From positions 126,001 to 190,000 of IMG/VR virus record IMGVR_UViG_3300045999_010033: 64,000 bases of DNA. One strand, written 5' to 3'. This document shows positions 10,669 to 34,000 of this stretch, piece after piece. The position numbers and the translations under genes are program-made. The first letter of the stretch is position 1; each line of letters begins with the position of its first letter. The notes below the pieces were generated by a model. That model saw nothing but the letters and a program-made list of their open reading frames with translations. It was not told the origin of the DNA and searched no databases. The DNA comes from a virus.

Positions 10669-11235
10669 TTATAAACATCCTGTTACGTAAACTACATATA
10701 AATATTGTCCAACATTAGAATCATAAGTATAATCGTATTGATATGTTGCATTTAAGCTGGTTATTCCAACACTAGATGTTACTAATGTAGAAATAGACGC
10801 GGTATATTGACTTCCATCGTTTTTCCACGGTTTACCATAGTATACTTCTAAATCTCCGGCAGTAGCAACACTACCTGATATATTAATATCAATTAAACCA
10901 TTTTCAGTTCCTAAATCAATAATTACCATTGTTTTTGAATAGCAGTAATCCGATATGTGATATAAAGATGCAGTATTTTGAGATAATGTGTAAGCGCTAT
11001 GGTCATAATCGTACCAATAAGACATTGAGTAATTGAGGCTGTTTGGAGAATTAAATTTTCCTTCGGGAAGTGATATTCCTCCTACGTTTATTGGTGCGTA
11101 TATGTTTGTAGCAGATAACGCCCAATTATTAAGTGCCAACAAAGAACCTTGCAACTCATAATTATTAACTAAACTTTGAGATGTTTCGGTTCTCACCATA
11201 CTCATAGAAATAGGACCACTAGACGGTAAAGCCAT
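10669..11235 (-). CDS. Fibre-associated structural protein with MALPSSGPIS N-terminus
   Basis: The 188-residue protein begins MALPSSGPISMSMVRTE, a short N-terminal pattern that recurs on many phage tail appendage and decoration proteins. The rest is beta-rich and has many Tyr, Ser and Asn residues, ending in strands such as VGQYLYVVYVTG. Its start overlaps the end of the 1394-residue fibre gene by 17 bases, suggesting translational coupling to that fibre. The likely role is a fibre tip or accessory structural protein. No enzymatic motif is visible. Confidence 0.65.
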   Translation of the reverse strand: MALPSSGPISMSMVRTETSQSLVNNYELQGSLLALNNWALSATNIYAPINVGGISLPEGKFNSPNSLNYSMSYWYDYDHSAYTLSQNTASLYHISDYCYSKTMVIIDLGTENGLIDINISGSVATAGDLEVYYGKPWKNDGSQYTASISTLVTSSVGITSLNATYQYDYTYDSNVGQYLYVVYVTGCL

Positions 11236-14200
11236 AATTTCTTAATTTTCTTTTTAAATCATGTATTTGAATCTGCTGCTCCTTAACTGCCTCAATCAAT
11301 AAAGGTATAATCTTTTCGTAACGCACTGAAAGATAACCGGTATCATTCTGTCTTATAGCTTCAGGTAATACCGATTGTATTTCTTGAGCAATCACACCAA
11401 CATCTACGCCATCGTATCCATGTATGGTTTTATATTCCGGCTTCCAATTAAATCGCACACCTGATAATGTATTTACTTTATCTAATGCGTTTTCAATCGG
11501 ACTTATTATATCTTTTAATCTTTCATCCGATGTAGAATATGCTACAATATCGTTACTTGCATCTATTCTACCATCAGTATCACTCGGACTTATATTTCCT
11601 CCAACTGCAAGAGAACCTGCTGTTATTTTAACATCTCCAGTAACAACATTTATTGCATCTCCGTTTGATGTACCAGTCACACTTAATGTGTTTCCATTGA
11701 ATGTCAAATTAGATTCAACTGTAGCGTTTGGTGCACTTCCATTTAATGTTATAACTCCATTATCAGTTGTGCCAGTTAGTGTTAAAGAGCCATTTGCCCC
11801 ACTACTTCCACTACTTCCACTACTACCGCTGCTTCCATTTTGTCCGCTCGTTCCGCTGCTGCCGCGCGTGCCACTAGTACCACTGCTTCCGGCGGTTCCG
11901 CTAGTCCCGCTACTACCTGCTGAACCGCTACTTCCTGCAGTTCCGCTGCTACCACTACTACCTGCAGTTCCGCTGCTTCCTGCAGATCCACTACTGCCAC
12001 TGCTGCCGGTTGAACCGCTACTTCCTGCAGTTCCGCTGCTTCCGCCGGTTCCACTTGTCCCGCTGCTACCGCGCGTACCGCTCGTGCCGCTACTGCCACT
12101 GCTACCCGTTGAACCGCTACTGCCACTACTTCCTGCAGTTCCACTACTACCGGTTGAACCGCTACTTCCGCTACTTCCATTTTGTCCACTGGTCCCGCTG
12201 CTTCCTGCTGTCCCGCTACTTCCGCTGCTACCGCGCGTTCCACTAGTTCCGCTGCTTCCGCTGCTTCCATTTTGTCCGCTGGTCCCGCTGCTTCCTGCAG
12301 TTCCGCTGCTGCCACTACTACCAGTTGAACCACTACTTCCGCTACTTCCGCTGCTTCCATTTTGTCCACTGGTCCCGCTGCTTCCTGCAGTTCCGCTGCT
12401 GCCACTGCTTCCTGCTGTCCCGCTACTTCCGCTGCTTCCGCGCGTTCCACTAGTTCCGCTGCTTCCTGCGGTTCCGCTACTACCACTACTACCGTTTTGT
12501 CCACTGGTCCCACTACTTCCGCTGCTTCCACTACTACCGCTGCTTCCATTTTGTCCGCTCGTTCCACTACTTCCTGCAGTTCCGCTGGTCCCGCTACTTC
12601 CTGCAGTTCCGCTGGTCCCGCTACTTCCTGCAGTTCCGCTGCTGCCGGTTGAACCACTACTTCCACTGCTACCTGCTGTCCCGCTGCTACCACTGCTGCC
12701 GGTTGAACCACTACTTCCGCTGCTGCCACTGCTTCCGGCAGTTCCGCTACTACCACTACTTCCGGCAGTTCCGGATGCACCTCTACGACCCGATATATTT
12801 ATATCCCAATTACTACGATTAGTAGTTACAGTATTAAATGTTATATTTAAAATTAATGTTGTTCCTGAGTAGGAAGTTATATTACCTTCCATGTATTCGT
12901 TAGCATCTAAACCATACGCTACAATTAAAGTTTGTCCATTAGTATATGATAATTCGGCAGATGCTACCGTAAAAGTTTTTGAACCGGTTCCAGTTCCGTG
13001 AGTAGTGGTCGATGTTGTTGCATATCTACCTCCTGAAATTCCTGATGATCCACTACTTCCACTACTTCCACTTGTTCCTGCACTACCGCTGCTTCCACTG
13101 CTTCCGCTACTTCCACTACTTCCTGCAGTTCCGCTCGTTCCGCTACTTCCATTTTGGCCGCTCGTTCCACTACTTCCGCTACTTCCTGCAGATCCACTAC
13201 TGCCGCTGCTACCAGTTGAACCGCTACTACCTGCCGAGCCAGACGTACCACTACTTCCACTACTTCCGGTTGACCCGCTGCTACCGCTCGTTCCACTACT
13301 GCCATTTTGTCCGCTCGTTCCACTGCTTCCGCTACTTCCATTTTGTCCACTCGTTCCACTGGTCCCGCTACTTCCGCTACTTCCGCTGCTTCCACTGCTA
13401 CCTGTCGTTCCGCTGCTTCCTGCGGTTCCGCTGCTTCCACTTATTCCGGCGGTGCCGCTACTTCCACTACTTCCACTGCTTCCATTTTGTCCACTCGTAC
13501 CACTGCTTCCGCTACTTCCACTACTTCCGGTCGTTCCGCTACTTCCTGCAGTTCCGCTACTTCCGCTTATTCCTGCAGTACCGCTGCTTCCGCTGCTTCC
13601 TGCGGTTCCGCTACTTCCGCTGCTTCCATTTTGTCCACTCGTGCCACTACTACCATTTTGTCCGCTGCTTCCGCTGCTTCCACTGGTCCCCGAAGAGCCC
13701 GCAGGACCCGTAGCTCCTCCTAAGTTTACATCCCAACCATCTACGGTGGCGGTACCACTTATAGAATCTACATTTATTGTTAATAAGTTTGCGGCATAGG
13801 TAATGACCGTACCTTCTATTTTGTTTCCCGGATTACCAATGTCTGCTATTAATACCGGTTGTCCGGTTGTATATGAAAGGCCCGGAGTATTAAGGGTAAA
13901 TGAAATATCATCATTTACATTTATTGCCGAAAGTGTAAATTCTGTGTATGATGTTGTTGAGTATTTATCACCACCACTTTGTCCACTAGTACCACTCGAT
14001 CCAGATGATCCTGCTGTCCCACTTTCTCCGCTTGTTCCGCTACTTCCACCCGCACCGCCAATACCCGAAGTTCCATAATAAAGTCTATTATCGGTATCTA
14101 TTACTATTGTTCGGGTAGCACTATTATTTTCAGTTATAGTTGGTAAATAAAACGCACCACTTATAATTATTTCATCGGTATTTGCAATAAATAGGTCACT

Positions 14201-15403
14201 TCTTGCTCCATCATTTGTACCGTCACCTATTATGAAAAGTCCAGTTGTGTTATTTTTTCTATTATATTTTCCTACTACAGTTTGATATGAACCGGATGCA
14301 ATTGTTCCAATGCCTTCTGCGTGAGATGCTTCACCAAGTGCAACCGTGTTTGAACCTTCGGCGTGGGAATATAATCCTCTTGCTTCGGTGTAGTATCCCT
14401 CCGCGTGTGATGCAGTTTGATATGTTTGTGTAGAATATCCTTCCGCATGAGATGCCACTCCGGTTGCGGTAGTTGAACGTCCTTGTGCTACGGAATATAT
14501 CGCAGTTGCATTTGATTGATATCCCATTGCTACTGATGCAGTTCCTGATGCAGTTGTACCTATACCTTGTTCAATTGATGCACTTACTTTTAATTTATTT
14601 TCATTAAATGTTAAGTTTATAGATGCTGTCGCAGCTAATGGATTTGTTCCATCTGCTACCAATACTCTATTAGTGTTTGGTGTATGTATTCCTGTGAAAG
14701 AAACCCCACTACTGCCACTACTACCTGCGGTTCCGCTACTTCCTGCAGTCCCACTGCTACCACTGCTACCCGCGGTTCCGCTACTACCACTGCTTCCGGC
14801 CGAACCACTACTTCCACTACTTCCTGCAGTTCCTGCTACTCCACTACTTCCGCTGCTACCACTTGAGCCGGTATTTCCGCTGGTCCCGCTCGTGCCGCTA
14901 CTTCCGCGCGTTCCGGACGTACCGCTACTTCCACTTGTACTGCTGGTTCCGCTGCTGCCACTACTGCCATCTTTTCCACTACTTCCGCTACTTCCTGCCG
15001 AACCGCTACTTCCACTAACACCACTACTTCCTGCCGAACCGCTACTACCATTTGTCCCACTATTTCCAGATGACCCGCTACTACCGGCCGAACCGCTACT
15101 ACCTGCAGTTCCGGATGTGCCGTTTACTGCAGAAACTGTTGTATATTGTAATAATCCGGTTGTTGTATCTACAACGACGTATGTTGCTATTGAATTGTTA
15201 ATTGTAACTCCGGTTGCATACAACTGAGTTCCTTTCACATTTCCAGTAATTAGAACATTACCGGTTGTTTGTACGTTTAATGGTAATAAAGAAATGGTTG
15301 AACTGCCATCATTTATTTTTAGTACACTACCATCTAAGTAAAATTCACCGTGCGATAGAGATGGTGTTGATCCACCACGTCTAATTTGAAAAATAGATGC
15401 CAT
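11219..15403 (-). CDS. Collagen-like tail fibre with S74 chaperone domain
   Basis: This 1394-residue fibre starts with a virion-attachment type N-terminus (MASIFQIRRGGSTPSLSHGE). Gly-X-Y collagen-like blocks rich in Ser and Thr lie at about residues 96-234, 445-471, 565-786 and 874-1201. Short beta domains separate them. Residues about 281-378 carry YadA-head-like repeats (ASHAEGYS, SHAEGSNT, ASVAMGYQ), a trimeric beta-roll. The C-terminus (about 1288-1391) is an intramolecular chaperone of the S74/endosialidase type: SDERLKDIISPIENAL, GVIAQEIQSVLPEA and a final coiled coil. In that family the domain folds the trimer and cuts itself off at the Ser within the SDER motif. It lies downstream of the glycosyltransferase cassette. 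Confidence 0.9.
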   Translation of the reverse strand: MASIFQIRRGGSTPSLSHGEFYLDGSVLKINDGSSTISLLPLNVQTTGNVLITGNVKGTQLYATGVTINNSIATYVVVDTTTGLLQYTTVSAVNGTSGTAGSSGSAGSSGSSGNSGTNGSSGSAGSSGVSGSSGSAGSSGSSGKDGSSGSSGTSSTSGSSGTSGTRGSSGTSGTSGNTGSSGSSGSSGVAGTAGSSGSSGSAGSSGSSGTAGSSGSSGTAGSSGTAGSSGSSGVSFTGIHTPNTNRVLVADGTNPLAATASINLTFNENKLKVSASIEQGIGTTASGTASVAMGYQSNATAIYSVAQGRSTTATGVASHAEGYSTQTYQTASHAEGYYTEARGLYSHAEGSNTVALGEASHAEGIGTIASGSYQTVVGKYNRKNNTTGLFIIGDGTNDGARSDLFIANTDEIIISGAFYLPTITENNSATRTIVIDTDNRLYYGTSGIGGAGGSSGTSGESGTAGSSGSSGTSGQSGGDKYSTTSYTEFTLSAINVNDDISFTLNTPGLSYTTGQPVLIADIGNPGNKIEGTVITYAANLLTINVDSISGTATVDGWDVNLGGATGPAGSSGTSGSSGSSGQNGSSGTSGQNGSSGSSGTAGSSGSSGTAGISGSSGTAGSSGTTGSSGSSGSSGTSGQNGSSGSSGSSGTAGISGSSGTAGSSGTTGSSGSSGSSGSSGTSGTSGQNGSSGSSGTSGQNGSSGTSGSSGSTGSSGSSGTSGSAGSSGSTGSSGSSGSAGSSGSSGTSGQNGSSGTSGTAGSSGSSGSSGSSGSAGTSGSSGSSGSSGISGGRYATTSTTTHGTGTGSKTFTVASAELSYTNGQTLIVAYGLDANEYMEGNITSYSGTTLILNITFNTVTTNRSNWDINISGRRGASGTAGSSGSSGTAGSSGSSGSSGSTGSSGSSGTAGSSGSSGSTGSSGTAGSSGTSGTAGSSGTSGTAGSSGTSGQNGSSGSSGSSGSSGTSGQNGSSGSSGTAGSSGTSGTRGSSGSSGTAGSSGSSGTAGSSGTSGQNGSSGSSGSSGSTGSSGSSGTAGSSGTSGQNGSSGSSGTSGTRGSSGSSGTAGSSGTSGQNGSSGSSGSTGSSGTAGSSGSSGSTGSSGSSGTSGTRGSSGTSGTGGSSGTAGSSGSTGSSGSSGSAGSSGTAGSSGSSGTAGSSGSAGSSGTSGTAGSSGTSGTRGSSGTSGQNGSSGSSGSSGSSGANGSLTLTGTTDNGVITLNGSAPNATVESNLTFNGNTLSVTGTSNGDAINVVTGDVKITAGSLAVGGNISPSDTDGRIDASNDIVAYSTSDERLKDIISPIENALDKVNTLSGVRFNWKPEYKTIHGYDGVDVGVIAQEIQSVLPEAIRQNDTGYLSVRYEKIIPLLIEAVKEQQIQIHDLKRKLRNYGFTV
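11800..12780 (-). repeat. Collagen-like repeat block, fibre 11219-15403 (distal)
   Basis: About 330 codons of Gly-X-Y triplets, mostly GSS, GTA, GTS, GQN and GTR. The repeats also leave long open frames on the opposite strand. Confidence 0.9.
13045..13710 (-). repeat. Collagen-like repeat block, fibre 11219-15403 (middle)
   Basis: About 220 codons of Gly-X-Y triplets with GQN, GIS and GTT interruptions among GSS and GTS units. Confidence 0.9.
14700..15115 (-). repeat. Collagen-like repeat block, fibre 11219-15403 (proximal)
   Basis: About 138 codons of Gly-X-Y triplets, including GKD, GNS, GTN and GVA variants, near the attachment end of the fibre. Confidence 0.9.
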
Positions 15404-15459: not shown

Positions 15460-17550
15460 TCAAATGTGCGATTTAAGAGAATCAATCACAATTTTTGCTG
15501 TAATTGATTTAGTGCATTCAAATTGTCGGTCAGTTCCTTTATGAATAGGACACCAATTCCAATCTCCCGCATCTAATCGGTGTGTGTTGAAACAATTTGA
15601 ACACTTATCTTGCGGTGCGGTTATTCTTATTGTGTTTGATTTAGTTTCTGTATAGTCTGCACTAAATCCTGATATTATACACATTCTGGTCCCCACTGCC
15701 CAACTTAACCAACTAAGTCCGCTACTTATTCCTATGAATAATTTTGATTTTTGCAATATTTCTATTACGTTATCAAATGAACTTTCTTCTAATTTTTCTA
15801 TACCGGGCGGATGCCAATTGCCCATGTATCCATTACCTTCTTTTGATAGTAAAACTACACGATATCCTGCCGATTTAAGGTAATCTACAACTTCTTGCCA
15901 ACCCGTTGGATTATTCCAATATTTGGCTTGAGCAGTTGAATGTATTGCTATTGAAACTATATTTTCTTTTTCTATATTTGGTTTTAATTTTATATTTGGT
16001 TTAATTTCTTTAAAATCGAGGCCAAGTATATCAGATGCAGTTTTTTGCAATTCTTGTGGTTTAAAATCTAATGGATTTTTATTATAATCAACATTTCCCT
16101 CTGCATTATAGTACCAACCAATTGTGTACATTGCATACAAATCGTTTACAACATCACCAGGATTTACAAATTCTATCTCAGGGTAGTTTTCCTTAAACAG
16201 ATTATTATGAAAAGTTGAACATATTACATTACAATCGTGCTTCTTTCTAAATTCATCTACATATGGAAACCATGCTAACGTATCTCCTATGGATTTAGAA
16301 TCTAACGCAATATAAACACGCTTACCTTTTAGTGATATTTCATATTTGTATCTCGTTTCACCATCATCTGCTATTACCATCCAATCTACATAATGAGATT
16401 TATTTGTTTTAATCCAACAATTACGGCCTATGATGCCTGAATGTTCTATTCTTCCAGTTTTTTTATCAATAAATTGTACGTTATATCTTTTATCCGGTCC
16501 ACCTTTTATTTCAAAAAACGCACTTTGTATAAAATTAATATTAAAAGATGGTCTTTCTTTTAAAGATGGTTTTGGATTTATTTTTGTAAGATTATAATTT
16601 TTTATTAAAATTTCTCGCATAGAATCTGAATTAATATAATATTTTATTAATTTTTTTGTTATGTTTTTCCAAGATAGTTCATTTGCCTGCGATAACGCAT
16701 CCGATTTATACTCTACGTATGTAAAATTATGCATTAAATATTCAATTGCTTGCACAATTAAATCTACATCACGTTCAACATACACCATACCCTTTATTGA
16801 GTTATCGGATTCAAATGTACCAATTACGGGTAATCCGCATGCCATTGCTTCCAATAGTGTAAGGTTTGGATGCCCTGCTTCTAATACCGATGGATGTAAG
16901 AATATAGTATGTTGCTTATATAAATCTCTCAACTCTTCTTCCGAAACGTCATATAATATTGTTAATTTATCATAATCACTTGGGTACTTTTGGAAATAAT
17001 TTTTGTTGTTTGATGGCCCTGCAATGGTTATTGGTAATCCCATTCGTTTTGCCGCTTCTATTGCAAATCCAAACCCTTTACGGTCTTCGGTTTGGTCAAA
17101 AGCAAACCCATTGTTGGCTACACAAAGTAATCGGTGTTCCGTTGTTTCACCCGGAGTAAACCAATCAGTATTAACACCATGTGAAAGGTATTCAGGTATT
17201 CCATCAAAGTATTCAATAAGGTATTTTGCAGGAACAAATGCACGTTTGGCATTACGAATAGCTTTTAGATTTTCCTTATACAATTCCGAATCCTTACCAT
17301 ATAAAAATGTATGGTGGTCATGTAATGTAAAGTAGTATGGGATACCACGTTCATACGCCATATTGGCCAAGTTTGCTACATGGATATGAACGATATCTTC
17401 ACTACCATCTATATCATCTAAATATTTTATTTGGGAATCGTATCCTAAATCCAATAGGTTATTATGAATTTCCCAAATTATTTTTTCAACAGCTCCCCAT
17501 CCATTTGGAGGTATTGGCAGTAACCCCGGAGTGACATTAACTATTTTCAT
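15460..17550 (-). CDS. GT4 glycosyltransferase fused to Aah/TibC-like protein O-heptosyltransferase
   Basis: The 696-residue protein has two parts. Residues 1-325 are a GT4/GT-B glycosyltransferase: Gly-rich N-terminal loop (PPNGWGAVEK), SHGVNTDWF, and the nucleotide-sugar site EAGHPNLTLLEAMACGLPVIG with E224 and E234. Residues about 340-696 match the autotransporter strand-loop-strand O-heptosyltransferase family: SKSIGDTLAWFPYVDEF, AQAKYWNNPTGWQEVVDYLK, GISSGLSWLSWAVGT. A Cys finger follows with C650, C653, C667 (WCPIHKGTDRQFEC) and C679. In that family the finger binds iron and the enzyme adds heptose to Ser of repeat adhesins. The gene sits between Ser/Thr-rich fibre genes, so virion fibres are plausible substrates. 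The sugar donor is unknown. Confidence 0.85.
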   Translation of the reverse strand: MKIVNVTPGLLPIPPNGWGAVEKIIWEIHNNLLDLGYDSQIKYLDDIDGSEDIVHIHVANLANMAYERGIPYYFTLHDHHTFLYGKDSELYKENLKAIRNAKRAFVPAKYLIEYFDGIPEYLSHGVNTDWFTPGETTEHRLLCVANNGFAFDQTEDRKGFGFAIEAAKRMGLPITIAGPSNNKNYFQKYPSDYDKLTILYDVSEEELRDLYKQHTIFLHPSVLEAGHPNLTLLEAMACGLPVIGTFESDNSIKGMVYVERDVDLIVQAIEYLMHNFTYVEYKSDALSQANELSWKNITKKLIKYYINSDSMREILIKNYNLTKINPKPSLKERPSFNINFIQSAFFEIKGGPDKRYNVQFIDKKTGRIEHSGIIGRNCWIKTNKSHYVDWMVIADDGETRYKYEISLKGKRVYIALDSKSIGDTLAWFPYVDEFRKKHDCNVICSTFHNNLFKENYPEIEFVNPGDVVNDLYAMYTIGWYYNAEGNVDYNKNPLDFKPQELQKTASDILGLDFKEIKPNIKLKPNIEKENIVSIAIHSTAQAKYWNNPTGWQEVVDYLKSAGYRVVLLSKEGNGYMGNWHPPGIEKLEESSFDNVIEILQKSKLFIGISSGLSWLSWAVGTRMCIISGFSADYTETKSNTIRITAPQDKCSNCFNTHRLDAGDWNWCPIHKGTDRQFECTKSITAKIVIDSLKSHI

Positions 17551-18343
17551 TTATATAATTTAATATCTTTTCGTTTTCTAACTTATCTTTTGTACCATGA
17601 TAAAAATATACACGACTGGAATCTTCACATTGTTCGTACATATTTTCATCTATAAAACTTTTTTTAATATTATAGTTTTTTTCACACAATTTAAATGTAG
17701 TAAATTTATGCGTATTTACAAAAATTCTATCATATTTTTCATTTAAATTATTTTTCCATAATAAAACATTTGCAGCGGTTTCATCTCTAAATGGAAAATA
17801 TGATGTGTGATTTTTTAAAAGATATTTATTTTCACAAATAGATTTCCATTCTTCTAAAAAATCAATTGAGTGTTTATCAAACGTAAAAAAACAAGCCATA
17901 ACATAAAACATAGATCTGTCTACTACTCCAAAGTATTTCATTAATTTTGTTTCATCAAATAAAATTGTTTCAGTATCACTTTTCCAAAAAGTAAATGGAT
18001 ATTCTATAACTCCCTCCGAAAAGCAAGGATATCCTAAATTTGATTTTATTTGAAATTGATTAAATCTTTTAGAAAGTATTATATCAGAGTCAAAATAACA
18101 AAAATCACCGTCAGTTCTATTCAACGCATCTAAAGAAATGGATGGTTTATAAAAATCAAATTTAGGTAAATAATTAATTTTTGGCCAAGGTATTTTTATT
18201 AAATTTTTGTGCTGTAAATTCGAATTGTATCCAATTGTATAATAGAATATATTATCCGGCTCAAAATTCGCGTATTGAAACGATTTTAAAAGATTTGAGA
18301 CCTGATATTCATAATTTATATCCGATAATACTACTATATTCAT
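17537..18343 (-). CDS. GT-A-fold glycosyltransferase with DxD motif
   Basis: Starting at ATG 18343 the product has 268 residues; a TTG six bases upstream is unlikely to be the start. It is a GT-A-type nucleotide-sugar transferase. The metal-binding DxD motif is D85-S86-D87 in GDFCYFDSDIILS, and a C-terminal H249-G-x-K resembles the second metal ligand of GT8-like enzymes. A conserved acidic segment FRDETAANVLLW lies near residues 185-197. The ATG overlaps the TGA of the 1220-residue gene by 4 bases, and its own stop overlaps the next glycosyltransferase by 14 bases, so the three are translationally coupled. Acceptor and donor are unknown; a role in the same glycan pathway is inferred. Confidence 0.8.
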   Translation of the reverse strand: MNIVVLSDINYEYQVSNLLKSFQYANFEPDNIFYYTIGYNSNLQHKNLIKIPWPKINYLPKFDFYKPSISLDALNRTDGDFCYFDSDIILSKRFNQFQIKSNLGYPCFSEGVIEYPFTFWKSDTETILFDETKLMKYFGVVDRSMFYVMACFFTFDKHSIDFLEEWKSICENKYLLKNHTSYFPFRDETAANVLLWKNNLNEKYDRIFVNTHKFTTFKLCEKNYNIKKSFIDENMYEQCEDSSRVYFYHGTKDKLENEKILNYINENS

Positions 18344-21300
18344 TTCCAAAAATTATATATTCTAAGTGTTCCATCTCCTAAAAAAAGTTGAAATGTAGAA
18401 AACCCAGTCGATGTCATTCTATCCATTATATATTTTGAATCATCTTCATTTAATATATTTCCATGAAATTCCAAAGAAACTTTTTTAACTTTAGATAAAT
18501 TTTCATCCGATATTCCTTCTAATACTTTTCTTTCATAGCCTTCTACATCGATTTTTAGAAAATCAATTTTTTCAAAAACATTATTTTCAAATAATGAATC
18601 TAATGTAGTAACTGGTACAAATTCGGATATTTGTCCTTCATTTGCAAAAGTTCCACACATTGTATCATCCGTTGAGTTTAAAAATATATTTTCAAATCCA
18701 TTTTTATTTGAAACACCCATTTTAAATATTTCACTATTTATAGGCTTGTTTCTTATTAGGCATTCAAACGCAATTTTACTCGGTTCAAAACTATATATTT
18801 TAGAAGCACCCTTGTAATACGCTGAGTTTGAAAATACCCCAACATTTGCCCCCAAATCAACAACAATATCACCATCTTCTATTTTACAATCAAATCTTTC
18901 ATATATACATCCATTTGTATATTCATCATAAGTAAAATGCATTTCTTTAAACATATGGTTACTTCCATCCATAAGTCCTATCCACATTTTATCCCATGTA
19001 AAATCTTCACTAAAATTATACAAATCGTAAAGCTTTATTTGTTGGTTTTTATTTAACCAATAATTTTTTTTTATTTTTGATGCATAAATAAATTTAGTAT
19101 TTTTTACTGTAGATTGTTCAACCTTAAATCCTAATTCTTTTAATTTTTTAATCATATTTTCTACTTTACCCATACCATTTTCAAAGTAAAAATCATGATA
19201 TTCAATTAAAAAGCTATCTATTTTTTCTACAATTTCTTTTGAAAGAGTATCTATTATACCAAATTCTGCTCCTTCTACATCAATTTTTATTAAATCTATT
19301 TTTTCTTCGTTAGAATTTTTTATAGCTTCTTCTAATGTAATAGCACTTACATCATACGATGGAGAGTGACCGGATTCTGCTATAAGAGATGAAATCAAAG
19401 AGTTTTCTTCATTTATGTAAAATTTTAGTGATGCGTTTTCCTTGTAAATTGCTTTATCAATTATTGTTATATTTTTATCATTTTTTAATGATTTTTCTAA
19501 ATGAAGTAACGCTTTTTTATTTGGCTCAAAGCAATATACCTTTTTTGCATTTCTAGATAAAATGTATTTTGTCCAAAGTCCAACGTTTGCACCAATATCA
19601 AATACAACTTTACAATTATCTAAATCATATGAATCATATATTCCATCTATAAAAAATTCTTCATAATTTAGAAAAATAGGTTCAGTATTTGATATATTTA
19701 ATTCTGGTTTTTTTATGGGGATATCTTTTAATTTCAATTCCTTAAACTCCAATAGTTGTTCATTTTCATTGTAGTATTCTATTAAAAATCCTGAAAAATT
19801 TGGATGATTTTTAAAATCAATTACATGCTTTGGCAGTGGGATAGTCCAAAACCAAGCTCCAGAATTAGCAGGAGGTAAAGACATTGAGTATATGCATGCT
19901 TTCGAATCTACATCTTTAATACATAATTTTAAATGTTTATCTATGTTTTCTAAATATACTATATTGAATTTGTTTTCATTTTCATCAAATTTTAAATCTA
20001 TTGGTAATTTCATTTTTTCTTTGTTATCCCGATTATTAAATTTTATTTGTCCTGCGTTTGAATACAATTGGATATCATTAGAATTGTATTCAATTACTTT
20101 TGTTTCAAGTAAACTTTTATTTACAAATGTTTTAATTTTTATAGTGCAACTATCGTTTAATTTTACAATTTTATATTTTTTATTATTTTGATATAAAAAT
20201 GAATCAACTTTTTTATCTGAAAGTTGAATTTCAAAATCATATTCAATTAAATCATTTGTTGTAATTATAAGGTATGCAGTTTTTTCTTCATCTAAAAGTA
20301 TTTCATACTTAATACTCTGATATGATGATATATTTATTTGGCTATCAAAAAAATAATCTTTAACATAGTTTTTTATTAAAAGTACTTTATTTTGATTAAA
20401 ACACTTATAAAAAAAATACTCTAAACAATTAGGAAATTGTGAAGCAAAATTTTGATTATAAATTTCCAAATCAATCGGAAAATATGAATTAAATTGATTT
20501 AAAAATGATTCCGTCTTTCCAATAAAAAAGCTTGTTTCATAATATTGGCCAACGATATCGCCAAATACTGCTTTTGGTGGATAAAAGAAAACAAACTCTT
20601 TTTCTTCTTTAATCATTTCATTTTCTAATAATTGTATTTGTTCTATTCCTTTTTTCGAATATTTGTGATCAAACTCACAAAAATAGAAATGGTCATATCC
20701 TAAACTTTTAGCAGAATTTAATGCTAATCGCATAGAACGTATGATTGGAAATTCATGCGAATAATTTAAATTTTGTAAAATACTAAAATCTTCATTTATA
20801 TCATACGCGTAATTATGGCTAACGTTAAATCTATTATCCGAATCATATAAATGATAATCTACCGATGAAACTATATCTCCTGGCAATGTGCAATGTGATA
20901 CAATCATAATTGGGCATCGCATTGGTTTTATAGATTTTATACAATCTCTAAGAAGATTTAATTTAACATCAGTAGTTGCATATGTATCTATTATAAAAAT
21001 TTTATTTTTACTATTTGTTTCTATATTTTCATTTTTTTTTAATCCCAATATTTCTACAATCTTTTCCGAATTAACATCGGAATCGATATTGTTCAAATAC
21101 TGAATATTTTCATACTTATCAAAATATCCCAAATAAACATCTAAATTGTAAATTAAACTAGGTATGTTCCAACCAATTGCTTCTCTAATAACAAGTGGCA
21201 TGGTTTCTTTATCAGTAGAATGACCACGAGATGTAAACAAAAATAAATCTGCCATTTCATAAAACGTATCTACATCACTACGTTCTCCCCACCATTTACA

Positions 21301-22002
21301 ATTTGATGGAAAATCCCGCATAATCGGCTCCCAATAGTGCCTAAAATTATCCGCTTGGTTACCTATAAAGTGAAATTGAATTGGATATCCTTTTAACTTT
21401 CTTGCATATTCAATAACTTCTGCTTGATTTTTTCTTGGTGTAAAAAGACCCACATTTATAACGTGCCTAACATTCGGGTCTAAACCTAATCCGATTAGTA
21501 TTTCTTCCCTACTACGTGTTTTTGTTTTAGATTCAATTGGATATTCTACCAATTCAGTTGGAATACCCAATACTTTAAATTTATTTACCTGATAATCTGA
21601 AACCATTAAGAATCTATCAGGAAAATGCAATTTACCATTAATATCAAATCCGGAATCGTGAGATGTTTCTATAATTTTATACTTCCTATCTTCTTTATAA
21701 ATTCTGAGAGCAAGTTCGTATGGAATAAAATATTCGGGTAATTCTTGAAAATGAATTATATCGGGGTTTATACCAACTATTTCATTTAGTATCCAATTTT
21801 TATCTTCACCCAATGTAATCAATCGTTTTCCAAGTATAGATTCGATACGATTTCGTTGAACTACTAATTTTCCACCGGTATGATTATCCCATTCAATACA
21901 ATATATCTCATAATCATTTATGAGAGATTCTATTTGTTTATAAAGATATTGAGGTTGCCCACCGGTTGATAAATGTGGCGTTATAAAAAGTAACTTTTGC
22001 AT
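18340..22002 (-). CDS. Multidomain glycosyltransferase with two FkbM methyltransferase domains
   Basis: The protein has 1220 residues and at least four modules. Residues 1-325 are a GT4-like glycosyltransferase (FITPHLSTGGQPQYLY; E267-x7-E274 region in DKETMPLVIREAIGW). Residues about 333-560 look like a GT-A/GT2-like domain (IFIIDTYATTD, FYFCEFDHKYSK). Residues about 565-770 are a beta-rich linker. Two FkbM-type SAM-dependent methyltransferases follow: 785-980 (FDIGANVG at 801-808, KIDVEGAE at 906-913) and 1020-1215 (VDLGANVG, KIDVEGYE at 1150-1157). FkbM domains usually O-methylate sugars or natural products. The protein could build and cap a methylated glycan. An N-terminal TGGQPQYL loop fits a GT-B donor site. 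Confidence 0.82.
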   Translation of the reverse strand: MQKLLFITPHLSTGGQPQYLYKQIESLINDYEIYCIEWDNHTGGKLVVQRNRIESILGKRLITLGEDKNWILNEIVGINPDIIHFQELPEYFIPYELALRIYKEDRKYKIIETSHDSGFDINGKLHFPDRFLMVSDYQVNKFKVLGIPTELVEYPIESKTKTRSREEILIGLGLDPNVRHVINVGLFTPRKNQAEVIEYARKLKGYPIQFHFIGNQADNFRHYWEPIMRDFPSNCKWWGERSDVDTFYEMADLFLFTSRGHSTDKETMPLVIREAIGWNIPSLIYNLDVYLGYFDKYENIQYLNNIDSDVNSEKIVEILGLKKNENIETNSKNKIFIIDTYATTDVKLNLLRDCIKSIKPMRCPIMIVSHCTLPGDIVSSVDYHLYDSDNRFNVSHNYAYDINEDFSILQNLNYSHEFPIIRSMRLALNSAKSLGYDHFYFCEFDHKYSKKGIEQIQLLENEMIKEEKEFVFFYPPKAVFGDIVGQYYETSFFIGKTESFLNQFNSYFPIDLEIYNQNFASQFPNCLEYFFYKCFNQNKVLLIKNYVKDYFFDSQINISSYQSIKYEILLDEEKTAYLIITTNDLIEYDFEIQLSDKKVDSFLYQNNKKYKIVKLNDSCTIKIKTFVNKSLLETKVIEYNSNDIQLYSNAGQIKFNNRDNKEKMKLPIDLKFDENENKFNIVYLENIDKHLKLCIKDVDSKACIYSMSLPPANSGAWFWTIPLPKHVIDFKNHPNFSGFLIEYYNENEQLLEFKELKLKDIPIKKPELNISNTEPIFLNYEEFFIDGIYDSYDLDNCKVVFDIGANVGLWTKYILSRNAKKVYCFEPNKKALLHLEKSLKNDKNITIIDKAIYKENASLKFYINEENSLISSLIAESGHSPSYDVSAITLEEAIKNSNEEKIDLIKIDVEGAEFGIIDTLSKEIVEKIDSFLIEYHDFYFENGMGKVENMIKKLKELGFKVEQSTVKNTKFIYASKIKKNYWLNKNQQIKLYDLYNFSEDFTWDKMWIGLMDGSNHMFKEMHFTYDEYTNGCIYERFDCKIEDGDIVVDLGANVGVFSNSAYYKGASKIYSFEPSKIAFECLIRNKPINSEIFKMGVSNKNGFENIFLNSTDDTMCGTFANEGQISEFVPVTTLDSLFENNVFEKIDFLKIDVEGYERKVLEGISDENLSKVKKVSLEFHGNILNEDDSKYIMDRMTSTGFSTFQLFLGDGTLRIYNFWK

Positions 22003-22339: not shown

Positions 22340-23098
22340 TTATAATCCAAATCTTGTTTTATCAGCATCGTAGTTTTGTGTCAACTCTGCATCTGTCAAT
22401 GCTCTATTATATACCCTAAATATGTACATATTTCCTTTAAAATATTCAGCGTCAGCAGGAATGGCTGCTAGAAGAACCGGATTAGCGTTTAAAGTCATTG
22501 TATTAGGTATATTAGTGTCAGCCGCTCTCTGTACTGAGTTTCTAATAATCTGTCTATAAGGGGATGTTCCTGTTCTTCTTCTAAATACAAAATATGCATT
22601 TTGATTTATCAACCCGCTATCTGTAAATTGTATCCTTTGGTTAACACTATCAAAATAATACGTGTCAAAATATGGAGTATGAGCAAATAAACCACGTATA
22701 TTTTCAGTTGCTGTAAATCTAAAACTAGTACCTCCTACCGCTTGTGTCGGTTTTATTACCATTTCTATTGTACAGTCTGCTGTTATACCAAATGTGTTTG
22801 AATTAGGTCCTGTAGCATGATCATTAGTACCATCAAAAACTATCGCTCCTCCACTCTCAGTACTGTAGGTAGGTCCATTTACAAGAGTAAAATTATTACC
22901 ATAACCACTTATATCAGTCCAAGTAGTTCCTGATCCGGGATAAGAAGATGCATTTCCTGCATCTAAATATAATCTAAGTCCATCTGTTACTATTGAAGAT
23001 ATTGGTGGTATGGGTAAACTGCCTAATCTACTTGTATCCGTTCTCGGATATAATCTATCTCCAAAACTTCCACTTTTTTCTTGAAACGCTCTAAACAT
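22340..23098 (-). CDS. LamG/ConA-like lectin-domain virion protein (copy 1)
   Basis: The 252-residue protein carries one concanavalin A-like/LamG domain. The motif IVTDGLRLYLDAGN is at residues 36-49, VFDGTNDHATG at about 87-97, and a C-terminal strand MYIFRVYNRALTDAEL. It ends in QNYDADKTRFGL. It differs from the other six copies by a longer N-terminus of about 35 residues. LamG domains bind glycans or proteins, and such phage proteins are usually receptor-binding or fibre-tip subunits. It lies after the 892-residue fibre and the 134-residue protein and is followed after 4 bases by the small accessory gene. Confidence 0.8.
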   Translation of the reverse strand: MFRAFQEKSGSFGDRLYPRTDTSRLGSLPIPPISSIVTDGLRLYLDAGNASSYPGSGTTWTDISGYGNNFTLVNGPTYSTESGGAIVFDGTNDHATGPNSNTFGITADCTIEMVIKPTQAVGGTSFRFTATENIRGLFAHTPYFDTYYFDSVNQRIQFTDSGLINQNAYFVFRRRTGTSPYRQIIRNSVQRAADTNIPNTMTLNANPVLLAAIPADAEYFKGNMYIFRVYNRALTDAELTQNYDADKTRFGL

Positions 23099-23539: not shown

Positions 23540-26218
23540 TTAATAATTGTAGAACATATATAGTTTTGCTCCTGCAGGTATAGGTTCTGCACCTATTATA
23601 CTACCAGTTATTGTCAGGCTCCCACTTATATCTAATTGGGAATTAAGTGCAGTTTCTTTTCCAATTCCAACACGAGATTGTGATACAAATAATGCACGTG
23701 TTCCGTATTGTCCGATTCGGACCGTATTATCGGAAAACGCTTCCATTATAGGAAGACCTGCTATTGTATTAACACTAAATAGAGATCCGGTAAAGCTATC
23801 ACTAACACTAAATAGTCTTCCCGAAACACCATCAACCGTCAATACATTAGAACCACTGCCTATAAATGCCGATGCGGTAGATGAGGCCGACACTATTAGA
23901 CTACCGGTTATAATCGCTCTACCAACATATGGAAATGTAGCCCCAGCACCACCCGGCGCCCAAGAGGCAGATACTGCAAATGATGCAGTACCGAACAATG
24001 AACCGGTTATGCTTCCACTTACACTTAAACTACCAGTTACGGTGTGTACGTCGGAAACTACATTACCTATTCTAACCCCGGTGTTAAGTACTTGGAGTTC
24101 AATTGAACTACCGGTAATAACAGTGAGTGAACCGGTGATGATTGTATTGCCGTTCACATCGAGTTTTGCGTTGGGAGATGTTGTTCCTATACCTAAGTTA
24201 CCTGTACTAGAAAAGATATAGTTAGCATTATTACTATTACCTGCTAGGAAATATAAAGGTATGCTAGTACCTATCGAACTTATATAGTTACTGGTTGGCC
24301 CGCCACCTCCTGCTAATAAAAGGCCGTAGCCAGAATCTGTTATTTTAATTGTTCTATTTCCTGCTGTGCTGACGCTTCCTATCTGCAAATTACTATCGGG
24401 TGATGTAGTTCCTATACCTACGTTTCCTTCTATAATCATACCGGATGTTGGTGGAGCAGTATCACCATAAACGGATCCCACTGAAACACTTGCCACCGAT
24501 AATCCGGTATATCCGTTGCCTGAGTTAAGCATTCCAAATCTGGAAAATCCGGTGGTACTATATTGTACTCTATTTTGTCCAGTATCTCCTCCGATAGAAA
24601 ACGCATTAGTACCTGTAAACCTGCCGATTCCTGCTACTTCTAGTTTTTGATTAGGAGTCGTTGTACCAATACCAACGTTTCCGCTTCCACTTATGAAAAA
24701 GTATTCAGCTCCAGCAGAACTTTGAACTCTCATTAAATTATCGGAAGCTACACTACCACTAATATGCAAAGAAGCAGTAGGAAATCTAGTACCAATGCCT
24801 ACTCTGGCAGACCCCACGGTTCCTCCTACTGAATCTATTGTTAATACCGCATCGGTAACTGCGGTAGCAGATGTGTTAGAATTATTATTTAATAAAATGT
24901 GTATCTTTCCACTAGCATTCGCTCCTTGTCCATGTCCATCCGTTCTTTCAAAAACAAGTGCAGATTTTCTATAATTGGAATTTGCAGGCTCAACGTACCC
25001 AAAAGATATTCCTGCTATTTGAGTGTTTGCTATTTGAGATCCAAAACTAGAGACTACCCCCGCAGCTCCTCCATTTACATCTAATTTATATTGAGGAGTT
25101 GTAGTGCTTATACCGACGTTTCCATTTGTTCTTAATATAGTCATTCTATCGGTCAAAGTCCCATCTCCTGTAGAAAAAACTAACCCCGAAATAGCAGAAG
25201 ACTCAGCAGTAATTGCTGCTTGTTTTACCGTGCCCCCAGTGCTCAATATAATATGAGGAGTTGCTGTTGTTGGATTTGTTGTATACGCAATCTCTAGCTT
25301 TGCCCCAGGACTTGTTGTACCGATACCAACATTACTACTTGAACTTATGAATATATTAGTCGCACCCGATGCACCTTGATCCTGAATAGATCCAGTTGCA
25401 ATTGTCGTTGTACTATTGAATTTAGAAACAAAGTTAGTTACACCTGTCGTAGATACCGATGTTCCACTACTGCCACTGCTGCCACTACTGCCGGTTGAAC
25501 CACTACTTCCACTACTTCCTGCTGTCCCGCTACTTCCTGCAGTTCCGCTGCTGCCGGTTGAACCGCTACTTCCGCTACTTCCTGCAGTTCCGCTGGTCCC
25601 GCTACTACCACGCGTGCCACTAGTTCCGCTACTTCCGCTGCTGCCGGTCGAACCACTGCTTCCGCTGCTTCCTGCAGTTCCACTGCTGCCGGTTGACCCG
25701 CTACTTCCACTACTTCCTGCAGTCCCGCTGCTGCCGCTACTGCCGGTTGAACCACTGCTTCCGCTGCTTCCTGCAGTTCCACTGCTGCCGGTTGACCCGC
25801 TACTTCCACTACTTCCTGCAGTTCCGCTACTGCCGCTACTGCCGGTTGAACCACTACTTCCGCTGCTACCTGCAGTTCCACTAGTACCGGATGTTGCGGC
25901 AGTATACGATGTTCCATTTATTATTAGTGAACCTGATATATTAACAGATCCGGTAAATTGGTGTGTATTGGATACTATTGTTCCAAACTTTGTAGAACCA
26001 CTTACATATTCAGTTGATGAACTTATTATTTGTGTTACGATAGTTTGCGCTGTGAGTGTTCCACGAACCGTAAAATTGTCCGCAGAAGATGCGGTTAACG
26101 CAACAGATGCAGTTCCTAAGAGAGAACCAGTAATACCCGCACTTACATTAAGAGAGCCGGTTATTTGTGAGCTATTAAGAGCTATTACACCATTTCTGGC
26201 TATAAATTCATTTGGCAT
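23540..26218 (-). CDS. Collagen-like tail fibre with repeated VGIGTTxP modules
   Basis: The 892-residue protein starts with beta-rich modules (NSSQITGSLNVSAGITGSL, TGSVNISGSL). One collagen-like Gly-X-Y block follows at about residues 110-254. Repeats of the form NVGIGTTSPxxKLxV occur from about residue 290 to 690, each followed by a short beta strand set. The C-terminal part has ITGSL-type strands and ends in LYMFYNY, without an S74 chaperone domain. This architecture is typical of long trimeric phage side fibres. It is followed by the 134-residue protein, LamG copy 1 and the small accessory gene, which parallels the downstream neighbourhood of the 2301-residue fibre. Confidence 0.85.
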   Translation of the reverse strand: MPNEFIARNGVIALNSSQITGSLNVSAGITGSLLGTASVALTASSADNFTVRGTLTAQTIVTQIISSSTEYVSGSTKFGTIVSNTHQFTGSVNISGSLIINGTSYTAATSGTSGTAGSSGSSGSTGSSGSSGTAGSSGSSGSTGSSGTAGSSGSSGSTGSSGSSGTAGSSGSSGSTGSSGTAGSSGSSGSTGSSGSSGTSGTRGSSGTSGTAGSSGSSGSTGSSGTAGSSGTAGSSGSSGSTGSSGSSGSSGTSVSTTGVTNFVSKFNSTTTIATGSIQDQGASGATNIFISSSSNVGIGTTSPGAKLEIAYTTNPTTATPHIILSTGGTVKQAAITAESSAISGLVFSTGDGTLTDRMTILRTNGNVGISTTTPQYKLDVNGGAAGVVSSFGSQIANTQIAGISFGYVEPANSNYRKSALVFERTDGHGQGANASGKIHILLNNNSNTSATAVTDAVLTIDSVGGTVGSARVGIGTRFPTASLHISGSVASDNLMRVQSSAGAEYFFISGSGNVGIGTTTPNQKLEVAGIGRFTGTNAFSIGGDTGQNRVQYSTTGFSRFGMLNSGNGYTGLSVASVSVGSVYGDTAPPTSGMIIEGNVGIGTTSPDSNLQIGSVSTAGNRTIKITDSGYGLLLAGGGGPTSNYISSIGTSIPLYFLAGNSNNANYIFSSTGNLGIGTTSPNAKLDVNGNTIITGSLTVITGSSIELQVLNTGVRIGNVVSDVHTVTGSLSVSGSITGSLFGTASFAVSASWAPGGAGATFPYVGRAIITGSLIVSASSTASAFIGSGSNVLTVDGVSGRLFSVSDSFTGSLFSVNTIAGLPIMEAFSDNTVRIGQYGTRALFVSQSRVGIGKETALNSQLDISGSLTITGSIIGAEPIPAGAKLYMFYNY
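25455..25890 (-). repeat. Collagen-like repeat block, fibre 23540-26218
   Basis: About 145 codons of GSS/GTA/GST triplets with a single GTR. The DNA is made of closely related short units. Confidence 0.9.
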
Positions 26219-26489: not shown

Positions 26490-27176
26490 TTATGATAGTC
26501 CGAATCGGGATTTTAGAGCGTTGTAGTTTTGAAGGATTTGTGATGCAGATAATCCTACATTATATAGTTTAACTATTGATATTCGTCCTGTGATATATGT
26601 GTGAAACCCTGCAAAACCAACAGTAATAGCTTCATTTGATGCTGTCCACGGTCCGGATGCAGTCGATGTTCCAATACTAATTGTATTTAGGTAAAGTGAG
26701 TGTGTCGTACCCGATGTGGTCGCACATATATGATTCCATCTATTTAATTCTAACAATGGAGTTGTTGGATATATTGATGGATCGGTTCCTCCATATCTTT
26801 GCCATAATAATCGTCTATCGGCTGCGTACCATAATCCGAACGTTCTGTTATTACCACCATTACCACCGGTGCCCACTATTCTAACCCAATCAGATGGACT
26901 TGAGGTAACATATATCCAAGATTCAACTGTTATGTCGGTTGTAAATTGAGAAGAAATTGATGTTGAGTTAATGTAATCGTTAGTTCCATCGAAAGAAATA
27001 CTGCCTCCATTTCCACTATCAAACGTAGGACCATTTATCAAAGTTCCATTATTTTGATTAATCGTTATATCATTCCAAATCGTATCTGTTCCGATATAAC
27101 TATTTTTATCCGCAGCATCAAGCGCCAAAACTAGTCCGTTTGTGATAACTTGTTCAGGTCCAGCTATTTTTCCCAT
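26490..27176 (-). CDS. LamG/ConA-like lectin-domain virion protein (copy 2)
   Basis: The 228-residue protein is one LamG domain: VITNGLVLALDAADKNSY near the N-terminus, ISFDGTNDYINS at about residues 60-71, WIYVTSSPSDWVRIVGTGG and a strand set ending VKLYNVGLSASQIL. It ends in QNYNALKSRFGLS. The front edge is preceded by the 27187 LamG gene at 10 bases. Residues of the FDGTNDY turn are conserved with the other copies, while the loops after residue 75 differ strongly. That pattern fits a shared scaffold with variable binding loops. Confidence 0.8.
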   Translation of the reverse strand: MGKIAGPEQVITNGLVLALDAADKNSYIGTDTIWNDITINQNNGTLINGPTFDSGNGGSISFDGTNDYINSTSISSQFTTDITVESWIYVTSSPSDWVRIVGTGGNGGNNRTFGLWYAADRRLLWQRYGGTDPSIYPTTPLLELNRWNHICATTSGTTHSLYLNTISIGTSTASGPWTASNEAITVGFAGFHTYITGRISIVKLYNVGLSASQILQNYNALKSRFGLS

Positions 27177-27186
27177 TTTTTATTTT

Positions 27187-27849
27187 TTAAGTTAATCCGA
27201 ATCGGGATTTTTGTGCATTATAGTTTTGTAAAACTTCGGCATCTGTTAATTGTCTATTATAAAATTGAATACATGATATTGAACCACCCATACCATTGCC
27301 TATATTGAACGTGCTTGCTTGTCCTGAAGGTGTACTTGTATTATTGGGACCATTGGCATTTCCATTTTCAATACCGTTTTTCCATATTGTTCGGTATCCA
27401 TTTGAATTTTTGAATCTAAATGCTAAATGTGTCCATCCTGTCCCCTCAATATTACCAGATCCATATGTATAATAATCATTAGCACCTGAATTTAAATATA
27501 AAAGTGGTGCAACATCAAAATAACTAGCAAAAAGACCCGAATTTAATCCATCAACTAAATACCCCGCACCACCTGCGTTTACACTTACATTAACCCAAGC
27601 AAGAACAGACCATTCTTGTGTTAAATTTGATTGATTTAGTGGATTCGATACTGATGCCAAATCATTTGTTGCATCAAAAACCATTGCATTATTTGAAAAA
27701 CTAGCACCATTAGTTAATGTTGCATTTTTACCATTACCACTCACATCAAACCAAGTAGTCCCACTACCAGGATAACTATTTCTATCGGCTGCATCTAAGT
27801 TCAACACTAATCCATTGGTTACTATTGTTGGTCCGTGATAAAAACTCAT
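27187..27849 (-). CDS. LamG/ConA-like lectin-domain virion protein (copy 3)
   Basis: The 220-residue protein is the shortest copy. It begins with VTNGLVLNLDAADRNSYPGSGTTW and has MVFDATNDLASV at about residues 55-66, with Ala replacing Gly in the usual FDGTNDY turn. It ends QNYNAQKSRFGLT. Its start overlaps the end of copy 4 by 4 bases (27846-27849), so the pair is translationally coupled. The central part, including LNSGANDYYTYGSGNIEGTGW, differs from the neighbouring copies. Confidence 0.8.
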   Translation of the reverse strand: MSFYHGPTIVTNGLVLNLDAADRNSYPGSGTTWFDVSGNGKNATLTNGASFSNNAMVFDATNDLASVSNPLNQSNLTQEWSVLAWVNVSVNAGGAGYLVDGLNSGLFASYFDVAPLLYLNSGANDYYTYGSGNIEGTGWTHLAFRFKNSNGYRTIWKNGIENGNANGPNNTSTPSGQASTFNIGNGMGGSISCIQFYNRQLTDAEVLQNYNAQKSRFGLT

Positions 27850-28611: not shown

Positions 28612-28613
28612 TT

Positions 28614-31019: not shown

Positions 31020-34000
31020 TTATATTGTTCTAATTATGAATTTGCCAGTCCAAGTTCCTGCTGATGCAGAACCTGTCATTACCATATTTGACCCGGATAT
31101 TATTGATGTAAAGGCTACGCCTGATGTGTTTCCAAAATCAACCGTAGATACATCACTAACAACAGTTGATGCCCCAGACCACATCGCTATAAATTGTCCC
31201 ATTCTTGCATTAGAACCACTCCTAATTGTGTATTCAACAAACATTCCATCGTAAGAACCGGTACTCATACTATAAATTGTAGTTGAACCTGTTATAGATA
31301 CACGCTTAGTTGTATTCAATACGGGTGCAATACTATCTCCCATCAATACCGTATCATCCGAAAATACTTCCAATATCGGAAGACCCGAAATATCATTCAC
31401 AGAGAATAGTGAACCCGAAAGGTTATCAGTAACTGAAAATAGTTCACCTTGGCTGCCTAATACACTAAATATAGATTGAGAAGAACCTGAACCATGTATG
31501 ATTGCACGTTGTACTCCGGAGCCGGATACTAATAGTGTGGATGATGTAAGTGATGTTGCAATTACGCTACCCGTTACATTTAATACACTACCATTAAAAT
31601 TAAGATTTGCTTCCGCAACTGCACTATTTACACTACCATCCGATGTTAATACTCTATTATCTGCAGGTGTCGCTATTGTGGTAAATCCGGTACCACTTGT
31701 TCCTGCAGTTCCGCTGCTTCCTGCTGTCCCGCTGCTGCCACTACTGCCGGTTGAACCGCTACTTCCACTGCTTCCTGCTGTCCCGCTGCTGCCACTACTG
31801 CCGGTTGAACCGCTACTTCCACTGCTTCCTGCTGTCCCGCTGCTGCCACTACTGCCGGTTGAACCACTACTTCCACTGCTTCCTGCCGTGCCGCTGCTGC
31901 CACTACTTCCAGCGGTTCCGCTACTGCCGCTGCTACCGGTTGAACCACTACTGCCCGCACTACCACTGCTTCCTGCAGTTCCGCTGCTTCCGCTACTACC
32001 GCTTGTTCCCGAAGAACCTGCTGTCAATAGATTTGTTCCTACACCTGCTGCTGCTTCTGTTAAATCTATATATGCACCCCTTGCTGCACCTCCTTGTTCA
32101 AAAAATCTTAATTTATTTTGATAAGAATCGATAGTTATACCACTACCAGTGAGTGAGTTATTAGTAGCTGATTTATTTAGTAATATTTCACCACCCTCGT
32201 CACCCGATTGATATAATATACTTAATTTAGTACCATCAAATGTTAAAAGTGATTCTGCGTTCGCTTCCCCTTGAGTTCCCGTTGCGGTTAATATTCTATC
32301 ATTAGCATTGTTTAATATGTTTGCAACACCACTCGTACCGCTGCTTCCGCTGCTTCCTGCAGTTCCGCTGCTGCCACTACTGCCGGTTGAACCGCTACTT
32401 CCACTGCTTCCTGCAGTTCCGCTGCTGCCACTACTGCCGGTTGAACCGCTACTTCCACTGCTTCCTGCAGTTCCGCTGCTGCCACTACTGCCACTGCTTC
32501 CTGCTGTCCCGCTGCTGCCACTGCTGCCGGTTGAACCGCTACTTCCACTGCTTCCTGCAGTTCCGCTGCTGCCGCTACTGCCGGTTGAACCACTGCTTCC
32601 GCTACTTCCACTGCTTCCTGCCGTCCCCGATGTGCCCGAAGTTGCTGCAGTATAAGATGTACCGTTTATTATCAGTGAACCGGATATACTAACAGAGCCG
32701 GTAAATTGATGTGTATTTGATACCAATGTTCCGAATTGTGTGGAACCGGTAATCAATTCGGTCGAAGAAGTAATAATTTGCGAAACTATTCTTTGTGCAA
32801 CTAATGTATCTCTTACCGTAAAGTTATCCGCAGAAGATGCGGTTAGCGCCAGTACCGCGAGTGATGCGGTTTGTGCAAATGATGCGGATGTGGCATTAAG
32901 TGGTGTACCATTTATCCAAACCCCACCATTGTAAACTAATGCCTGTCCATTTGTAGGAGTTGTAATATTTACATCCGATAAATCATCCAGAGTTTGTGTT
33001 ATATTTGTAGCAGCTGAAGACCCACCCGATGTATTTCTAAAAGAACCCGCTTGTATAAAAATTGCTTGTGATGTATTTGTTAAATCACTAGCATTTCCCT
33101 GAACTAATAGGTATCCCGCAAAAATTAATGATTTAGCGGTAAACTCACCTTCTACAAAACTATCAGAAAGTAACGCAGATAAAGCGTTTGCTATTGATGT
33201 ATATGAATTATGTCCGTAGTATATTACTGCACGCTTAGATTCGGGACTATAAAATATTCTTTGAATAGTAACGTTAGGACCAGATACACTTGATAATCCA
33301 TTTCCGTTATCATATTTTGTAGGATCCACTACGGTGTAATAGTTGCCATTATTACTGTCCAAATATATTCCAGATCCAGTTCTATACGCCCTAGCCATAG
33401 ATGCAGTAAGAGCAGGTGTAGCAGTATAATGTGATGGACTATTAGGATTTTGTGAATAATATCCACCTAAAAAGAATCCCGTACCATCTCCTATATTGAT
33501 TCTTAGCGAACCACTTTGGCCCGATGGTGTGAATCCATTTACTTTTATCGGTCCGAATGACCTAATAAAATCATTTTGTTGTGTATCACTATTATATGTA
33601 GTTTGTACACTACTTGCGTATCCTGTTATACTTGAATAGTTTGGATGTGTAACTAATCCAAGAGGTATTGCCTCCTCGTATTGAGTTTCATCAAAATAAG
33701 AAGTTTGTTGGAAGATTACTCCTGTCCCATCAACGTATAAATAAGTCGTTTGTGATGAAGTTATGTATTGTGCAGATGCAGTATAATCATTCCAATTAAC
33801 GTAAGTAATAATAGGATTGATTTCCGACCCGCTGGTGGCATTCATATTATTAATGATACCACTACCTTTTTTAACATATATTACACTGCCACTAAAAGAA
33901 ATACCTCCACCATATAATATTCCCGAACTTAATCCACCTTCTAACCATTTGAATTTGGTTAAGTTACCATTTTGACGATAATATAAATCATATCCGGTAG

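Follow-up and report, generated by a model that had tools for sequence, protein, structure and literature searches.

The closest described relatives of the enzyme analyzed here are TibC of enterotoxigenic Escherichia coli (ETEC) and AAH of diffusely adhering E. coli (DAEC), which belong to the BAHT family of glycosyltransferases (model TIGR04414, hepto_Aah_TibC) a family described for bacterial autotransporters only in the literature examined. The BAHT structure has an iron finger; Arg286 of TibC, the residue in contact with the ADP-heptose adenine, is required for activity, which is abolished or strongly reduced in the R286A mutant (eLife 03714). TibC position 300 determines heptose stereochemistry. 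Phage glycosyltransferases encoded beside fibre genes are usually interpreted as modifiers of host lipopolysaccharide (LPS) or DNA. Here, we describe a BAHT domain encoded in a glycosyltransferase cassette within positions 126001-190000 of the 221,095-bp virus record IMGVR_UViG_3300045999_010033 (64,000 nucleotides; hereafter, the window), the gene content of which is that of a myovirus head and tail, i.e., sheath, major head protein, portal, terminase, and maturation protease. This domain belongs to a real and widespread enzyme clade that is sister to the known BAHTs, and the collagen-like Gly-x-y repeat is its probable acceptor.

The cassette consists of the following genes, domains, and segments, with overlaps of 14 and 10 bp between the neighbouring 696-, 270-, and 1220-aa open reading frames (ORFs):
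15460..17550, minus strand: GT4 and BAHT (Aah/TibC-type) fusion, 696 aa (TIGR04414, TibC chains, GT4 Pfam)
15463..16503, minus strand: BAHT domain of this fusion, residues 350-696 (alignment with TibC and 78 relatives)
15514..15603, minus strand: four-Cys iron-finger segment (C650, C653, C667, and C679, equivalent to TibC C339, C342, C358, and C370)
17537..18349, minus strand: putative GT-A-fold glycosyltransferase, 270 aa (DxD at 87-89, AlphaFold2/Foldseek)
18340..22002, minus strand: 1220-aa multidomain protein with GT4, GT-A-fold domain, spacer, and two FkbM domains

TIGR04414 matched residues 352-693 of the 696-aa protein with an E value of 3.6e-85 and 286 bits (cut-off, 200), and the TibC crystal chains 4rap/4rb4 matched the BAHT domain at E about 1e-55 with nearly the whole domain length aligned. 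A preliminary description of this locus, made from the letters alone, had assigned the C-terminal half to the autotransporter O-heptosyltransferase family, an assignment that these matches bear out at the family level. The blocks on which it relied are in place, with AQAKYWNNPTGWQ beginning at residue 540 and SGLSWLSWA at residue 610, as is the four-Cys finger. As regards the N-terminal beta-barrel, the alignment begins at TibC residue 37; PF21129 was not reported for the window protein in the Pfam scan and gave a weak match in Microcystis phage Mel-JY01. GT4-type Glycos_transf_1 matches lie within residues 1-320 of the fusion (Pfam matches at 155-275). In the 270-aa protein, the DxD (D87, D89) is invariant across its alignment; the AlphaFold2 model has low confidence (pLDDT 60) and is usable in the GT-A core only, and Foldseek searches with this model placed GT6 enzymes as the closest solved structures, with BoGT6a as the best match. 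The 1220-aa protein combines GT4 (1-330), a GT-A-fold domain (about 335-565), and FkbM methyltransferase domains at 799-961 and about 1032-1185. Domain matches and gene overlaps thus agree with the architecture proposed earlier, namely a GT4 fusion coupled to a GT-A enzyme and an FkbM giant, the GT-A fold being assigned with low confidence.

In a maximum-likelihood tree of 79 BAHT sequences, a split with 100/100 support separated a classical clade from a phage clade. The former (22 rows) comprises TibC, Burkholderiaceae, Bacillota, and some Methylococcales, and the latter (57 rows) comprises every sampled phage sequence, nine Methylococcales loci, Polaromonas, and two phage-like contigs from metagenome-assembled genomes (MAGs). 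Asp110, Lys230, Trp305, and all four Cys of the iron finger are retained in both clades. TibC position 226 is Thr in every phage-clade row and can be either Thr or Ser in classical rows; the window equivalents are D423 (Asp110), T539 (Thr226), K543 (Lys230), and W614 (Trp305). Arg286 is present in 22/22 classical rows and in 0/57 phage-clade rows, the window protein having V595 at this position. The TibC P300 equivalent is Ser in the window protein (S609), as in AAH, and its thumb tip is Tyr-Met versus Phe-Val in the TibC/AAH family. Since the entire phage clade lacks the arginine that TibC requires, the heptose donor assumed in the preliminary description is not compelled; the core chemistry is probably kept and the nucleotide sugar may differ. 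Judged by its sequence, the window domain belongs to a sister clade within the BAHT superfamily and is not filed as an autotransporter heptosyltransferase proper, because Arg286 and an autotransporter partner were both sought and neither was found. The missing Arg286, together with the R286A phenotype, could also indicate that activity is lost or altered in the phage-clade domain, which would no longer use ADP-heptose and might serve as a scaffold or transfer another donor to another acceptor. We regard this as very improbable: the catalytic Asp, the phosphate-binding Thr226/Lys230, the sugar-binding Trp305, and the iron-finger Cys are retained clade-wide, so that a changed choice of nucleotide or sugar fits better than a dead enzyme. 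In the bacteria with L102, L105, L099, and L100, two divergent classical BAHT genes lie by one autotransporter or in tandem. The two MAG contigs, filed under Rickettsiaceae (L092) and Bacteroidetes (L096), resemble phage DNA, with GT/FkbM/BAHT multidomain genes adjoining collagen-like fibres; their filing under bacterial MAGs probably reflects binning errors.

The acceptor is suggested by the neighbours of bacterial BAHT genes, surveyed at 11 phage-clade loci, one per genome, and 17 classical loci. An ORF for a secreted protein or lipoprotein with a (Gly-Thr/Ser-Ser/Thr/Ala)n repeat directly adjoins BAHT in 10/11 phage-clade genomes, and such a repeat occurs in 0/145 of the other ORFs in these loci (Fisher, 1.8e-10, a value that overstates independence given only eleven loci, several of them closely related). 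A Gly-Thr/Ser repeat neighbour was found at 0/17 classical loci and an AIDA-type repeat neighbour at 9/17, including one with 39 TIGR04415 stretches (L105). Methylococcales contain both clades and therefore provide a natural control. The partner triplets are Gly-Thr-Ser, Gly-Thr-Ala, and Gly-Ser-Ser, all common to bacterial partners and phage fibres, and Pro is nearly absent. Partners are unlike one another outside the repeat, those of Polaromonas and genome G623 (102 and 112 aa) containing little beyond lipobox and repeat, and in three loci partner and BAHT are on opposite strands. This variation in sequence and orientation argues that the link is more than a frozen operon, and the differing partners, down to the minimal ones, indicate the repeat itself as the acceptor. 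Modification of other virion proteins (head, sheath, LamG, or baseplate), with fibre adjacency reflecting mere co-location of modules, would leave this bacterial pairing unexplained because no virion exists there. Mycobacteriophage glycosyltransferases glycosylate capsid and tail-tube proteins (Freeman 2023, as cited in PMC12619734), the major capsid, sheath, and LamG genes share the window, and some BAHT phages are devoid of Gly-x-y fibres; even so, we consider this explanation quite unlikely. Pairs of BAHT with secreted or lipoprotein (Gly-Thr-Ser)n genes occur in Methylococcales, Polaromonas, and another gammaproteobacterium (L093, L094, L095, L098, L226-L229, and L224). No published description of such two-gene pairs was found in the literature examined, so that the system is apparently undescribed.

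The same kind of repeat is encoded on either side of the cassette in three fibres, each PF01391 positive or a PHROG tail fibre:
11219..15403, minus strand: collagen-like fibre 1, 1394 aa (PF01391, 318 bits; PF13884)
23540..26218, minus strand: collagen-like fibre 2, 892 aa (48 Gly-x-y triplets, no Pro)
31020..37925, minus strand: fibre 3, 2301 aa (tail-fibre PHROGs, best E=8e-79)

Fibre 1 ends 57 bp from the 696-aa enzyme ORF, contains 241 Gly-x-y triplets (127 GSS, 32 GTS, and 28 GTA) with 1 Pro, and terminates in an S74 intramolecular chaperone (PF13884) of the trimerising type. Fibre 3 has 172 Gly-x-y triplets in four tracts and no Pro, bringing the three fibres to 461 triplets with 610 Ser and one Pro. 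The cassette therefore does lie between collagen-like fibres, as originally noted. Their predominance of Ser, Thr, and Gly holds for fibre 1, with 52% of the protein in Gly-x-y tracts, and not for fibres 2 and 3 (16% and 23%). The TIGR04415 strand-loop-strand (AIDA-type) repeat is absent from the entire 221-kb record, which leaves the earlier acceptor model of repeated adhesin strands without its substrate. This layout also bears on an alternative role for the cassette, in which it would alter envelope glycans of the host (LPS, O-antigen, or capsule) and thereby block superinfection; such a role has been proposed for multi-glycosyltransferase clusters beside tail fibres in the host-recognition region of pelagimyophages (PMC7029224). 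A second sugar cluster in the record, which encodes a galE-like epimerase together with an rfaE_dom_II-like protein, would suit this role. Nevertheless, the cassette directly adjoins fibre genes, the BAHT family consists of protein glycosyltransferases, and phage-clade BAHT genes in bacteria have repeat-protein genes, not O-antigen genes, as their partners; among the scanned proteins, which represent part of the ORFs, none was identified as an O-antigen polymerase, flippase, or acyltransferase. Envelope modification is thus unlikely.

Relatives of the BAHT domain occur in at least 332 IMG/VR stretches and in four of 50,697 phage records, one of them from a cultured phage (Mel-JY01). The search for homologues and their neighbours in other phages, recommended in the preliminary description, thus extends what had been presented as a new use in one phage to a large set of viruses. 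The domain is either stand-alone (about 385 aa) or joined to varied GT4 and FkbM partners, which indicates that partners were exchanged while BAHT was retained. PF01391 was detected in 20/22 long BAHT phage records, and a Gly-x-y ORF in 18/25 distinct phage loci having at least 6 kb on both sides. In seven long records, the distance to a Gly-x-y ORF is shorter for BAHT than for the majority of genes (combined P=3.9e-5). Terminase relatives were tried as a co-occurrence background and left unused, being mostly short contigs.

Overall, the sister BAHT clade probably glycosylates proline-free (Gly-[Ser/Thr]-[Ser/Thr/Ala])n repeats, and phages would use it on their own fibres. The repeat acceptor gains independent genomic support from the phage-clade bacteria, which pair BAHT with the identical repeat whereas the classical branch does not. 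Glycosylation of the phage's own fibre repeats, as first proposed, is strengthened as to the acceptor and not as to the heptose. Several observations weigh against this interpretation. One bacterial locus (G227) is without a repeat partner, and collagen-like genes are present in 116/301 Methylococcales genomes without any BAHT, such that the repeats do not require the enzyme; in this order, such genes are frequent overall and seldom adjoin any particular gene. The pairing in phages is weaker than in bacteria, as tail modules house both types of genes and proximity follows anyway, and two records (G001 and G009) show no closeness between BAHT and Gly-x-y ORFs. Gly-x-y ORFs are scarce or missing in a phage subclade with stand-alone BAHT (L032, L034, L052, and relatives), the acceptor of which may differ. 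Finally, known BAHTs modify a beta-helix and not a collagen-like rod (eLife 03714). In some members of the stand-alone subclade, Thr-rich mucin-like ORFs of the virion module, with a Ser+Thr content as high as 76% per 100 aa, lie upstream of BAHT at L029 3670-4992 and L056 4161-5528, in phages without nearby collagen-like fibres; they are a possible alternative acceptor.

From the observed homology, intact residues, operon layout, clades, and enzyme-repeat pairing, we infer an acceptor residue, an order of steps, and a benefit. While virions assemble in the host cytoplasm, the BAHT domain would put the first sugar on Ser of the fibre Gly-x-y tracts (about 610 Ser in the three fibres); one mapped TibC site in TibA, N-S313-G-G, likewise has an S-G context. 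Both GT4 domains, the fused and the second one, would then lengthen this sugar together with the GT-A enzymes, and methylation by the FkbM domains may cap the glycan chain. The probable gain would be steadying of a collagen-like rod devoid of Pro or hydroxyproline, as well as shielding or tuning of the fibre surface. A stabilising role is suggested by analogy with the cuticle collagen of Riftia, where galactosyl-threonine takes over stabilisation from hydroxyproline (as cited in PMC10141479). A bolder and rather unlikely extension holds that the donor used by this clade, which aquatic phages share with some bacteria, chiefly methanotrophs, is other than ADP-heptose, that sugars replace hydroxyproline as triple-helix stabiliser, and that such prokaryotic collagens are obligate glycoproteins.

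The second sugar cluster of this phage (L086 4009-15417, record positions 84009-95417) encodes a B12-type radical SAM protein, the galE-like epimerase, Gfo/Idh and FAD oxidoreductases, the rfaE_dom_II-like nucleotidyltransferase, a GT-A enzyme, and two GT4 enzymes. The nucleotidyltransferase (141 aa, G000:C1:90841-91209) scored 94 bits, below the 181.5 cut-off. Only 3/18 BAHT phage records have an rfaE_dom_II-like gene, which makes it weak evidence for the donor; a phage-encoded ADP-heptose supply was thus rejected as a general rule. Another protein of the window (57600-61895, 1431 aa), near the terminase, has an N-terminal NMN-adenylyltransferase-like domain and a shorter relative in the same region of Mel-JY01. 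It was rejected as a heptose adenylyltransferase, since NMN adenylyltransferase-type models match and rfaE does not. The following gene lies between cassette and fibre 2:
22340..23098, minus strand: LamG/ConA-like protein (PF13385, E=2.7e-9; phrog_8510)

This protein, with a virion-structural PHROG match, is a possible glycan-binding neighbour of the cassette. Together with 26490-31018, its locus forms a tandem series between the fibres, in which each LamG/ConA-like virion protein measures about 230 aa; the PHROG match was examined for three of them.

Proline-free collagen-like fibres are common in aquatic phages, and an enzyme clade tied to their repeat offers a testable answer to how they fold stably. 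If confirmed, this would add phage fibres and collagen-like lipoproteins of bacteria to the pathogen adhesins as BAHT substrates, and would make an enzyme available as a tool to glycosylate collagen-like repeats. Two cultured systems are suited for such tests, namely Mel-JY01 and Methylobacter luteus IMV-B-3098.

Compared with TibC, AAH, and other TIGR04414 members, the window BAHT shares domain order, core, catalytic Asp, Thr226/Lys230/Trp305, iron finger, and a repeat-protein partner encoded close by. It differs in its separate, fully supported clade, the loss of Arg286, the Tyr-Met thumb tip, the GT4 fusion, and its phage origin, as well as in the partner, which is a Gly-x-y repeat instead of a strand-loop-strand repeat. 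The Methylococcales and Polaromonas pairs have in common with the window phage the clade, the Pro-free triplet vocabulary, and direct adjacency, but they are chromosomal, with stand-alone BAHT and a secreted partner rather than a phage fibre. In Mel-JY01, WWT39291 (annotated as 'methyltransferase FkbM') has a BAHT 50% identical to that of the window and a GT4 in the same protein, with a Gly-x-y ORF 4.3 kb off; here, BAHT is the last domain of a protein of 1226 aa and forms the deepest phage-clade branch. The glycosylation of mycobacteriophage virions likewise relies on phage-encoded enzymes acting on virion proteins, although the acceptors reported there are capsid and tail tube (Freeman et al. 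2023, as cited in PMC12619734). Riftia collagen, poor in hydroxyproline and stabilised by a glycosylated hydroxy amino acid, resembles the proposed fibres, but it is an animal protein modified by an unrelated enzyme.

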